A stretch of 39,082 nucleotides of DNA from Microcaldota archaeon. GTDB lineage: Archaea > Micrarchaeota > Micrarchaeia > Micrarchaeales > Micrarchaeaceae. The translations under genes were made by a program, and so were the position numbers. Below the pieces are notes generated by a model. The model was not told the DNA's origin, ran no database searches, and was given only the letters and a program-made list of their open reading frames with translations. This document shows positions 23,981 to 28,109 of the stretch, in pieces. How positions within the stretch are numbered: the stretch's first letter is position 1; each line of letters begins with the position of its first letter. The stretch lies in contig JAKAPJ010000011.1 of NCBI GenBank assembly GCA_021807115.1, forward strand, positions 1 to 39,082, written 5' to 3'.

Positions 23981-26900
23981 TCATTCCCTTAGGTCTATCT
24001 GCTTGACCGGTATCTCCACGAACCCCTCAGGGGTACTGTCGAACGAGTAGTGGCCCAGAGTCTCGGTGAACCCCTCGATGTACTGGCCCTGCCTGAGCAG
24101 CAGCCTGAGCTTCATGACCATGGGCCTTGCGCCTATGCTCTTGAGGAAGTCCCGCGGCGTCTGGTTAGGCGTTTTCGTGTAGAACGCCAGCTTCTCCGCC
24201 CCCGCCTCCCTAGCCAGCCCTTCAAGCACCTCCAGCACCTTCCCCTCCCTGCCCCTGATCGCCTCCCTGAACGTGTCCCCTCCCTCAAGCGAGTCTATGT
24301 ACAGCACCTTCGTGCCCTGCGGCGTCACCCCCAGCGCGCCTATGGCCGTGCCGTTGACCTTGACGTCCTCCAGCCTCGCCTTGAGCGGCATCTTGGCGAC
24401 CGAGAAGTTCACTATGACTATCCCCGGGTCGTTGGCGTAGCGCAGCGCTGCCCAGTGGTTACCCCCGCTCGGCAGGTAGCAGCACGCGCCAAGCGTCGCG
24501 GAGTCTATGCCTATGATGTTGTCCTTGCCCTTCACCGTGTATGCAACTATCCCGCGGCCTACCACCGTACCCTCGCTCCCCGCTGCGGCGTCCAGGACGT
24601 CAATCAACCCACGCAGCGCGTCAGCCTGCGCCCCGTTCCTAATCTTCGCCGCAGCCGACCTGAATATGCCCTCCACGGCCGCATAGTCCCTGCGACCGTA
24701 TGCCTCCTTCAGCTCGTTCATGAACCCGCCCTTTACGGAGTCCCATCCGTTTCGGGACATGTTTACCAGGGGATACCCTACCTTATCGACCAGCTCAGCA
24801 AGCGCGTGATTTGCGGCCTCCACATTATGCCTAGAGCCGTTTATGCCGTATACCAGCAGGTCGAGCGCGCGGTCCTTCGCTATGCGCACCGCTTCCGCTC
24901 CGTTAGCCATCGGCAGGGCGCGCACGATCCTGGTCTGATCCAGCACGCCGACGTTGAAGTACCTTGCCGCTTCGCCGGTTTCAACAGAATACGTGTTCCT
25001 TCTCTTCGCGAATGCGCTTATGCTGTCCGCCTCATTGTGCATGTAGTCGCCGCCGGCATTCATTATCGTGATTTTCTCGTCTGTCGTCAGCATCTCAGAG
25101 CCGCTGATCCCGTGGAGCTTGAAGATAGATTCCAGGACTCCCTCCGCCCCTTCCCTGCTGCTGAATATCCTTTCGTAGAGTGCATCACTGTTGCCGAACA
25201 TCTTATAGTAATCATTCTTGTCAGTAATGGCGGTCTTCGCGTTGTTCATGTGCACCGCCAACGCGACGGAATACCTCTCGAAATCCGTGCTGCCATTTGC
25301 GATGTTCCTGCTCGCCGCATTTACAAATGGCGGCAGGATCACGGTCTGTATCTTCTCTGCAAGATGGGGTGTCGCAGACACGCTCCTGAACAGCGCGGTG
25401 AAATAGTCGAACATGGCGCTGTCCCCCCCGTGCTTTTCGATCTCCATTGCAGTGGAGGCCGCATCGCAGAATTTGCGCAGGGCGCCATGTTCGCGCATGT
25501 ACAGTTTCATGATGTCGGAGACTGTTCCGAATGCCTTCGGATCCTCGCACGCGCGCCGCAGCGTTCCCGCAGCCAGTCCCGCAGTATCCGGATTGTCGCC
25601 CACCGCCCTGAGGGTGTCCAGGGCATCGTTGACCGTTTCTATCCCGATATTGCCCAAGGCGTAGTGGCAGAGCATAATGTGTACATCGCTGACAAGCCTG
25701 GCAACCCAAATGTCGTTGCGTTTGGCGTGGCTGAAGCGCACAAGCACGCCACTAAGCACCGGCCCCTCAAGAAGCTCCATCACCTTTTCATTCTCCTTCC
25801 GGCCAAGCCTCCTGATTTCTAACTCGCCATTAGGCCCAATCGCCTCGTAATTGGAATGCACCATCCGCATAAGTAGCCAGTATGAGACGAACGGCAAGTC
25901 CGCATACTTCTCAGCGATTCCCAGTGCGCGGTTGAGGAGTTCCGCATCCGATTTGCCGGCTGCTGCCTTCAGGCCGTAGTTGGACAGCTGCTCGGCCGCC
26001 ACATCGGGCCTGGCGGAAAACTTTTCACCCATCTCCCCCAGCGCCCCGTTGATTACCGCAGCCATCCTTTTGTTGCCCATGGCATCCACAGCCGCCCTTA
26101 TGGTGCCGTTGTCAATGCCCGCATGCGCCCACGAGGCTATGGTGGCCACGAGCCGGGGTGCGAATTCCGCCGAGCTATTGAAGTGCGACAGCAGCCCAGC
26201 TATCGGCGCCCCCTCTAGGGCGGTCTCCCACGCCACACCGGCGCGCGCATCCTGCTTTGGCATGTCCGGGATATGGTCGTCTACCATCCTCCATATGCGC
26301 TTCCATTCCTTTGCGCGCTGGCCCTGCCCCTCCCCGCCCCTCCCTACGGCGTTCGCTATAATGCCTGCCATGTAAGGGGCGCTGTCAGGGTTACCGCTGC
26401 GGTGCCTGAATAGTACGATTGCGCCCATGAGCTCCCTGCTCTCCAGTATGCGCATCCTGTTGTTCATCAGCGCCTCACTGTCCATCACTGGCGCAAGTAC
26501 GTCGTTTGCGATCTTTATTGCGTCCAGCAGGCCTGCGCCCCCGCCTCCCCCTGCCGTACCAATCCGGCCAAGCGCCTGTGCAACTCGGACGGTCCCTGCC
26601 CTGTTGCCATATCCATATGCGCTTTCCAGCAGCCCCCTTGCCGCCGCCGCTGCAGCCTGCCTGTTGTGGACGATGCGCGCAAGGGCGTCCAGCACATCCC
26701 TGTTCCAGGCCACGCTGATCTGCCTGTTCAAAATCTCGGCGAGGTTGGACGGCGAAAGGCCGCCGTGGCGCCGTTCAAGGCCACCCATTGTCGCCCTTGC
26801 CAGGATCTCCATGGCCCTGCGCCTTTCGGCACTGGATTCCGCATATTCCAGCAGCTCCGCTGGCACGCGTATTGCCGACGTGTCCCTCCTAAGGGTTATG

Positions 26901-26983
26901 CGGCGGTCGCGGTCCTTAAGCGACTCCAAATACGCGTTGGCGGTGTCTATGATTGATTTGGTGGCATCCGCGGCCCTGTCCAT
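23981..26983 (-). CDS. 1000-residue protein of unknown function with helical repeats and a C-terminal alpha/beta domain
   Basis: A soluble protein without signal peptide or membrane helix. Residues about 60-780 are mostly helices of 15-25 residues with alternating Ala/Leu and Arg/Glu, resembling HEAT/ARM-type repeats (MEILARATMGG, DVLDALARIVHNRQAAAAAARGLLESAYGYGN, TVNDALDTLRAVGDNPDTAGLAAGTLRRA). Residues about 820-1000 change to alpha/beta: IGIDSATLGACCYLPSGGNHWAALRYA, GIVIVNFSVA, GTKVLYIDSLEGGDTFREAIRG, VLEVLEGLAREAGAEKLAFYTKTPNQTPRDFLKSIGA, which resembles a GNAT-like fold by pattern only. The ATG at 26983 has AGGTG upstream and a TATA box at 27046-27055. Monocistronic. No function assigned. 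Confidence 0.8.
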   Translation of the reverse strand: MDRAADATKSIIDTANAYLESLKDRDRRITLRRDTSAIRVPAELLEYAESSAERRRAMEILARATMGGLERRHGGLSPSNLAEILNRQISVAWNRDVLDALARIVHNRQAAAAAARGLLESAYGYGNRAGTVRVAQALGRIGTAGGGGGAGLLDAIKIANDVLAPVMDSEALMNNRMRILESRELMGAIVLFRHRSGNPDSAPYMAGIIANAVGRGGEGQGQRAKEWKRIWRMVDDHIPDMPKQDARAGVAWETALEGAPIAGLLSHFNSSAEFAPRLVATIASWAHAGIDNGTIRAAVDAMGNKRMAAVINGALGEMGEKFSARPDVAAEQLSNYGLKAAAGKSDAELLNRALGIAEKYADLPFVSYWLLMRMVHSNYEAIGPNGELEIRRLGRKENEKVMELLEGPVLSGVLVRFSHAKRNDIWVARLVSDVHIMLCHYALGNIGIETVNDALDTLRAVGDNPDTAGLAAGTLRRACEDPKAFGTVSDIMKLYMREHGALRKFCDAASTAMEIEKHGGDSAMFDYFTALFRSVSATPHLAEKIQTVILPPFVNAASRNIANGSTDFERYSVALAVHMNNAKTAITDKNDYYKMFGNSDALYERIFSSREGAEGVLESIFKLHGISGSEMLTTDEKITIMNAGGDYMHNEADSISAFAKRRNTYSVETGEAARYFNVGVLDQTRIVRALPMANGAEAVRIAKDRALDLLVYGINGSRHNVEAANHALAELVDKVGYPLVNMSRNGWDSVKGGFMNELKEAYGRRDYAAVEGIFRSAAAKIRNGAQADALRGLIDVLDAAAGSEGTVVGRGIVAYTVKGKDNIIGIDSATLGACCYLPSGGNHWAALRYANDPGIVIVNFSVAKMPLKARLEDVKVNGTAIGALGVTPQGTKVLYIDSLEGGDTFREAIRGREGKVLEVLEGLAREAGAEKLAFYTKTPNQTPRDFLKSIGARPMVMKLRLLLRQGQYIEGFTETLGHYSFDSTPEGFVEIPVKQIDLRE

Positions 26984-27135: not shown

Positions 27136-27148
27136 GTTTATTTATAGC
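27136..27148 (+). promoter_or_regulatory. TATA-like box of the C/D sRNA (and nuclease gene)
   Basis: GTTTATTTATAGC has its centre about 25 bp before the first bases of the C/D RNA at about 27167. The nuclease gene that follows has no other visible promoter. Confidence 0.55.
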
Positions 27149-27166
27149 TATTCGTAGATACTAAAG

Positions 27167-27228
27167 CAGTGATGAGTGAGGTGAAAGCTGAGCCTTGCGG
27201 CTGTGAAGACAAGTAGGCGGGCTGATAG
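27167..27228 (+). ncRNA. Box C/D guide sRNA (dual guide)
   Basis: All four boxes are in order with archaeal spacing. C box GTGATGA at 27169-27175; a 12-nt guide at 27176-27187; D' box CTGA at 27188-27191; an 11-nt spacer; C' box GTGAAGA at 27203-27209, one base off consensus; a 12-nt guide at 27210-27221; D box CTGA at 27222-27225. A TATA-like box sits about 25 bp upstream. Such RNAs guide 2'-O-methylation of rRNA or tRNA by fibrillarin at the base paired five positions before D or D'. The targets were not identified. It ends 5 nt before the TTG start of the nuclease gene, so it may be processed from that transcript. Confidence 0.72.
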
Positions 27229-27230
27229 AT

Positions 27231-28109
27231 TTGGATGCGCTAAAGAGGTTGAAGAAGTCCAGCATTCGTGTCACGGACATAGCCGCCCAGTACTGGTGCG
27301 AGCGCCAGATGGAATACAACTACCTCTACGGCGCCAGGATAACCAAGGAGATAAAGCAGGGCACCGCGATACACGCGGAGCTGGAGGAGGCGGTTAACGC
27401 CCCAATAGACCTGAACCCAAGCTCCTACCCCGATGTGCTGTACAAGATACTGTACACTACCGTGAGGGCGCTGGACGCGCTGCGCAAGAATGGCAAGGCC
27501 AGGGAGATCCAGGCGTACGGCATGTGCAGCGGCTTCAAGATGGTGGGCAAGATAGACCAGCTTGAGATGGACTCCGACGAGGTCGTGGTGTGGGAGGACA
27601 AGACCAAGGGCAACGACAACCTCCCCTCCGACGCGCAGCTGTCCACGAACCGCGCCCAGGTGATGGTGTACCGCAAGATGCTCGAGGACGCCAGGGACGG
27701 CCGCTACACTCTGGAGCAGTACAAGAGGGACTACCGGACGTCATTCATGCGCATAAGCGACAATTTCGCCATGCAGCTGTCCGCGCTAGGGATAGAGAAG
27801 AAGCAGCAGACCGTGGATGCGGTCGCCGCCGACTACTTCGAGAGGATGAGGGGGCTGGGGAAGATAAGCAACACCCTCCACGTGCGCTACATAAACCAGC
27901 TGACCGGCAAGGTCATAAAGACGTACCGTTTCGGGTACGACGTGGGCGAGATGGACGGGATGCTGGACTTCTCCATGAAATACTGGAGGGGCGAGAGGGA
28001 GTCCCTGCCAGTCCCTGAGAACGAGGCGTGGAAGTGCAGGTTCTGCGCCTTCTTCGGCAAGGAGTGCAAGGTATGGTGGCCCCAGAAGGGGTTACAGCCC
28101 AAGGCATGA
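27231..28109 (+). CDS. Exonuclease V/Cas4-like PD-(D/E)XK nuclease with Fe-S cluster
   Basis: A 292-residue RecB-family nuclease. The nuclease core shows GTAIHAELE (H48), GKIDQLEMD (D109), VVWEDKTKG (E122, K124) and QLSTNRAQVMVYRKML (Q143, Y147). Four cysteines, C23 in QYWCERQ and C269, C272, C279 in WKCRFCAFFGKEC, are placed as in the iron-sulfur clusters of Cas4 and Exo V. No CRISPR array or cas gene is near, and the spacing resembles Exo5/Dem1 more than Cas4, so a role in DNA repair is favoured. The start is TTG at 27231; no ATG or GTG occurs upstream in frame before a stop. It directly follows the C/D sRNA. Confidence 0.88.
   Translation: MDALKRLKKSSIRVTDIAAQYWCERQMEYNYLYGARITKEIKQGTAIHAELEEAVNAPIDLNPSSYPDVLYKILYTTVRALDALRKNGKAREIQAYGMCSGFKMVGKIDQLEMDSDEVVVWEDKTKGNDNLPSDAQLSTNRAQVMVYRKMLEDARDGRYTLEQYKRDYRTSFMRISDNFAMQLSALGIEKKQQTVDAVAADYFERMRGLGKISNTLHVRYINQLTGKVIKTYRFGYDVGEMDGMLDFSMKYWRGERESLPVPENEAWKCRFCAFFGKECKVWWPQKGLQPKA

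Follow-up and report, generated by a model that had tools for sequence, protein, structure and literature searches.

Anatomy of the predicted sRNA and its genomic setting

The window, which is the whole 39,082-nt stretch of DNA analysed here, belongs to a Candidatus Micrarchaeota genome of 1.18 Mb in 44 contigs. On its forward strand, at positions 27169-27225, we find the elements of a double-guide archaeal box C/D sRNA in the order C, D', C', D. The C box (GTGATGA, 27169-27175) takes the form RTGATGA among 46 aligned relatives, with TGATGA invariant, and is followed by the 12-nt D' guide GTGAGGTGAAAG (27176-27187) and the D' box CTGA (27188-27191). An 11-nt spacer, GCCTTGCGGCT (27192-27202), separates these from the C' box GTGAAGA (27203-27209), which reads RTGANGA in nearly all relatives, the 12-nt D guide CAAGTAGGCGGG (27210-27221) and the D box CTGA (27222-27225), which is invariant. 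All four boxes are kept in the 46 aligned relatives, and the guides and flanks vary. Each box and both 12-nt guides named in the original prediction, which had been made from the letters of the window, could be located in the sequence, and the boxes have the sequences and order (RUGAUGA, CUGA, C', CUGA) of archaeal C/D guide sRNAs.

The spacer can fold into a K-turn stem of 3 bp, in which GCC (27192-27194) pairs with GGC (27199-27201) around a TTGC loop and nucleotide 27202 is bulged. Two or more spacer pairs in K-turn register are present in 141 of 148 related RNAs, as expected of a C'/D' K-turn or K-loop, and the second pair of the stem shows a compensatory change from C-G to G-C among these RNAs. 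No terminal stem of the sRNA was obvious by inspection. The gathering score was reached by no Rfam family for this sRNA; the archaeal C/D families sR3 and sR2 were among the best sub-threshold matches.

Box D is followed by TAGAT and then by the TTG start codon, at 27231, of a 292-aa Exo5-family nuclease gene (27231-28109, forward strand; PF09810, E = 6.5e-48). Beyond it lies a gene with a match to tRNA-synt_2c (alanyl-tRNA synthetase). The RNA thus ends 5 nt short of the TTG, as originally predicted. Two readings of this proximity had been offered, namely that the D box region overlaps the translation start or that the RNA is the processed leader of the mRNA. The first fails, since 5 nt separate box D from the start codon. 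The second fits the arrangement, since a conserved promoter precedes the sRNA and none fits between the sRNA and the TTG.

The predicted sRNA promoter is a TATA box (TTTATA, 27141-27146, forward strand) 28 nt ahead of box C, which agrees with the TATA-like box of the original prediction; from it, transcription is expected to start at about 27165-27169. Its position is conserved: in 44 relatives the best TTTATA match lies at a median of -28 relative to box C, and the A+T fraction at -29 to -25 from box C is 0.98-1.00. Transcription should hence begin at the sRNA, and the Exo5 mRNA should carry the sRNA as its leader. The best reading of these sequences is that in the order the sRNA is transcribed from its own promoter and doubles as the 5' leader of Exo5; once the transcript is trimmed on the 3' side of box D, the Exo5 mRNA would be left nearly leaderless. 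The nuclease is probably a passenger on the same transcript, without a role in guiding. On the other side of the sRNA promoter, and adjoining it, lies a divergent 1000-aa ORF with no Pfam match (23981-26983, reverse strand).

Conservation in the order and across the phylum

Upstream of Exo5, the same RNA recurs in other members of the genus and of the family, and in a second family of the order. A covariance model gave strong matches in 53 of 60 relatives, and Exo5 follows closely behind the sRNA in 48 of these 53. Exo5 is displaced in G011, G024, G055 and G059, where it lies 0.4-1.4 kb from the sRNA, and was not found in G030, where the sRNA is present. Searched across the phylum, the model matched 214 of 295 genomes, the weakest of which may be other C/D RNAs. 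Guides were read in 149 genomes, of which 38 lie outside the order; the ~1.4 kb downstream of the loci read beyond the order showed no Exo5. Because the sRNA is kept without an adjoining Exo5, it is the older, independent unit, and its link to the nuclease is local to the order. To judge from sequence comparison, the sRNA is conserved across the Micrarchaeota phylum.

Several genus members also hold a weaker second match to the model (E ~1e-4), probably another C/D sRNA: G005:C9:29611-29677, G013:C12:89141-89207, G012:C12:1300-1366, G006:C1:309298-309365, G004:C36:33335-33401 and G007:C1:22227-22293.

These data bear on the view that the boxes are a chance resemblance, or that what is conserved is N-terminal coding sequence of Exo5. 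In some relatives (e.g. G008) the D-guide stretch is indeed open in frame with Exo5. However, the distance from box D to the start codon and the frame both differ among relatives, so that a coding extension of Exo5 was rejected, and the sRNA is conserved where no Exo5 was detected behind it. The four-box pattern, which occurs once in the window, had no match in 200 Markov-shuffled windows searched on both strands. We consider either version of this explanation to have a negligible probability.

Search for guide targets

rRNAs (including 5S) and tRNAs were collected as candidate targets. The assembly of the window genome's 16S stops at Rfam model position 828 and its 3' half is missing, so both 16S sites described below are inferred from genus members and other relatives. 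In these relatives the sites of the two guides are first or among the best of ~1,490 16S positions, so that the outcome named as refuting the original prediction, a lack of complementarity for both guides, is not what is seen. The other targets it had proposed did not materialize: no convincing guide match was seen in the 38 tRNA genes found in the window genome, and 23S offered no consistent guide site. Guides of ~8-12 nt adjoining D' and D, complementary to their target across N+5, are typical of such RNAs; this complementarity is found in the relatives and is weaker for the window genome's D' guide.

5S rRNA was first suggested as a D-guide target by a match to CCCGCCTAC 59 nt past the 23S end, and was ruled out, as the 5S gene lies elsewhere and is without the site. 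In many of these Micrarchaeota the 16S gene contains insertions that are probably introns (L193 and other loci of ~2.0-2.2 kb). At L001 (G000:C26, end 18054) the contig breaks inside 16S just past GCCGCCTGGGGA, at or adjoining the point of the G022 (L193) insertion.

The D guide and C1402

The D guide is complementary to the 16S stretch ACCGCCYGYC, where h44 begins, and N+5 falls on C1402 (E. coli numbering). Among ~1,490 16S positions this site ranks first in 28 of 37 genomes and in the top five in 35. Guide and target show compensatory changes: position -9 of the guide is paired in 45 of 46 cases (C/G in 30, U/A in 15) with one exception, and position -7 is U/A in 26, C/G in 10 and mismatched in 10. 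When guide and target partners were shuffled among genomes, the observed pairing was never reached for either the D or the D' guide, in a comparison that ignores kinship. The -9 changes were also placed on a 16S tree from which the target columns had been left out. Two independent pairs lie on well-supported branches, and the changes agree in direction in both; these are too few for a formal test. The guide-target covariation at the D guide thus rests on few independent events.

In the window genome the D guide forms 8 contiguous pairs at C1402 (-2 to -9, with one wobble against CCGCCUGC), followed by a mismatch. In other organisms this nucleotide is 2'-O-methylated: PMC7005279 lists it as m4Cm for E. 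coli and its equivalents as Cm1376 (Pyrococcus abyssi), Cm1639 (yeast) and Cm1703 (human). The most likely role of the D guide is to direct 2'-O-methylation at C1402, a nucleotide of the decoding centre.

We also asked whether guides as a rule stop short of full pairing with the CCGCCCG site; this does not hold generally, as the G004 and G012 guides pair throughout -2 to -9. In G014 (L171) the sRNA still stands before Exo5, and its D guide, CAAAAACCTTG, is without C1402 complementarity.

The D' guide and the 16S 3' end

The D' guide, with the core AGGTGATC, is complementary to the 16S 3' end AGAUCACCUC, that is, to the anti-Shine-Dalgarno (anti-SD) sequence, with N+5 at C1533. Among ~1,490 positions this site ranks first in 19 of 37 genomes and in the top five in 35. 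In G036 the 16S 3' end reads CCUA and the guide UAGG. Comparison across the genomes strongly suggests the 16S 3' end as the pairing partner of the D' guide.

In the window genome, the D' guide makes 7 Watson-Crick pairs and one wobble with the anti-SD sequence, and -1 to -3 are unpaired. In several genus members it pairs better with a 16S hairpin near position 399 than with the 3' end, and in the second family a further site, CGATCGTCAGT, also scores well. The D' target is therefore firm for the phylum and less so for the genus. It is conceivable that in this genus the D' guide no longer acts on the 16S 3' end, having moved elsewhere (for example, to the hairpin at ~399) or become an orphan. 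Genus members that carry GGTGAAAG or GGTGAACG in place of GGTGATCG, with 9-11 nt of pairing to GGTTCACTTCGG at ~399, point in this direction. However, the 399 site is disrupted in the window genome itself (GGTCCACTTCGG), the anti-SD core AGGTGA is still present, and the genus members G008 and G010 retain GGTGATCG. We regard such a move as unlikely and keep the 16S 3' end as the probable D' target.

The 16S 3' tail departs from AUCACCUC in G006, G009, G026, G034 and G036 (L035, L048, L054, L060 and L056; AUCACCUA, AUCACCUU). G006, G009, G026 and G034 are without a strong match to the sRNA model; G036 keeps the sRNA and a matching guide.

A recurrent mismatch at the predicted position of methylation

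Position -5, opposite the nucleotide to be methylated, differs between the two guides in many lineages. In 41 of 149 RNAs there is an A at -5 of D' and a G at -5 of D; 16 of the 149 have the opposite arrangement, and none has A at -5 in both guides. G014, whose D guide lost its complementarity, is the one RNA without a G at -5 of either guide. On the tree these states require at least 6 and 4 changes. For a mismatch at such a position, Dennis et al. predict no methylation and consider pairing possible (PMC4644070). Since A stands opposite C at one guide in many lineages, and never at both, pairing seems to be more conserved than methylation. We infer from these few events that pairing is under selection and that at least one of the two guides stays able to methylate.

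Alternative roles for an RNA that adjoins a nuclease gene

An RNA that lies a few nucleotides before a start codon throughout the order might work mainly in cis, with L7Ae or the whole C/D RNP on the 5' UTR controlling Exo5 translation and rRNA pairing being secondary. There are precedents: Sulfolobus L7Ae represses mRNAs that have K-turns in their leaders (PMC5539422), and C/D genes overlapping the 5' side of a gene reduce the expression of that gene (Tripp 2017, as cited in PMC7994747). However, the guides covary with 16S, the RNA is kept in the five genomes above where Exo5 is displaced or was not found, and it occurs in other families without Exo5 downstream. The element is thus not tied to its downstream gene, as an L7Ae-regulated leader would be. 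A mainly cis-regulatory role is improbable in our view; a regulatory side effect on Exo5 is possible.

A C/D-like RNA adjoining a nuclease gene also recalls TIGR systems, in which, according to PMC12045711, guides in a tandem array are combined with a Tas protein, and the RNA could then serve a nearby DNA-targeting nuclease. However, the window holds a single unit rather than a tandem array, the neighbouring Exo5 is without a Nop match in Pfam, and the RNA has conserved guides that are complementary to rRNA. A TIGR-Tas system was rejected on this comparison, and we give a TIGR-like role hardly any probability.

Proposed mechanism

The original prediction of a well-formed box C/D sRNA is borne out by the anatomy, the conservation, the covariation with the rRNA target and the genes for fibrillarin (the enzyme) and Nop5 (the scaffold), both of which are present in the window genome. 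We consider it highly probable that the RNA is a double-guide archaeal box C/D sRNA that guides rRNA methylation and assembly and doubles as the leader of the Exo5 mRNA.

In such an RNA, L7Ae would bind the K-turns, and Nop5 and fibrillarin would assemble there into a standard C/D sRNP. While the D guide addresses C1402, the D' guide would contact the 16S 3' tail, and could methylate C1533 where its -5 base is G, as in the window genome. C1402 and the 16S 3' end lie close together in the 30S subunit. The sRNP would hold two stretches near the decoding region, and binding of both sites of one pre-16S may help its folding during 30S maturation.

As a more tentative proposal, to which we give a fairly low probability, one sRNP kept across Micrarchaeota might clamp the immature 16S at two places simultaneously, on the P-site strand around C1402 and at the anti-SD tail. 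The decoding site and the tail that reads the SD sequence would be masked until 30S maturation ends, and selection would act on pairing, with the methylation-competent -5 base toggling between the guides.

Relation to known systems

In box order and sequences, 12-nt guides and K-turn register this RNA resembles the known archaeal double-guide C/D sRNAs (PMC4644070; reviewed in PMC7994747), with which it also shares two rRNA targets, the N+5 rule and a proposed chaperone role for distant targets (PMC4644070). In contrast, the pair of C1402 and the 16S 3' end is absent from the distant-double-target table of Dennis et al. 2015 (PMC4644070), where h44 predictions are sparse, A1408 and G1494 are mentioned, and a search of the text for "1402" gave no match. 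Unlike the known double-guide RNAs, this sRNA can apparently be traced across a DPANN phylum, with a recurrent mismatch at -5. Our search of the main texts of openly available papers for Micrarchaeota C/D sRNAs or anti-SD-directed C/D guides returned nothing on point. We conclude that the kind of RNA, an archaeal C/D sRNA, is already known, and that the family, its persistence across the phylum, the anti-SD guide and the toggling mismatch are new.

In yeast and human, the guides of Cm1639 and Cm1703 are snR70 and U43. We know of no second guide against the 16S 3' end among the guides of the C1402 equivalents in yeast, human and P. abyssi. The likeness that can be claimed to the guides of Cm1639, Cm1703 and P. 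abyssi Cm1376 (PMC7005279) is in the target, which is the same nucleotide.

Both targets of this guide RNA appear to be traceable over the whole of a DPANN phylum through guide-target covariation. Methylation of C1402, which occurs in all three domains, could here be guided by RNA, and the guide for it is coupled to one for the anti-SD tail; with this coupling one can test whether double-guide sRNAs serve as clamps in small-subunit assembly.

As a leader, the sRNA resembles the 5'-side C/D genes of Tripp et al. 2017, as these are cited in PMC7994747, in standing directly before a start codon and in being likely to form part of a longer transcript; it differs from them, as far as that citation describes them, in its own conserved promoter and in a link to Exo5 kept through two families. 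With the K-turn leaders that bind L7Ae (PMC5539422) it has in common a K-turn within the 5' UTR, and differs from them in being an entire C/D sRNA whose guides are complementary to rRNA. It may thus serve as an example of a C/D sRNA that is the leader of an unrelated mRNA across a whole order.
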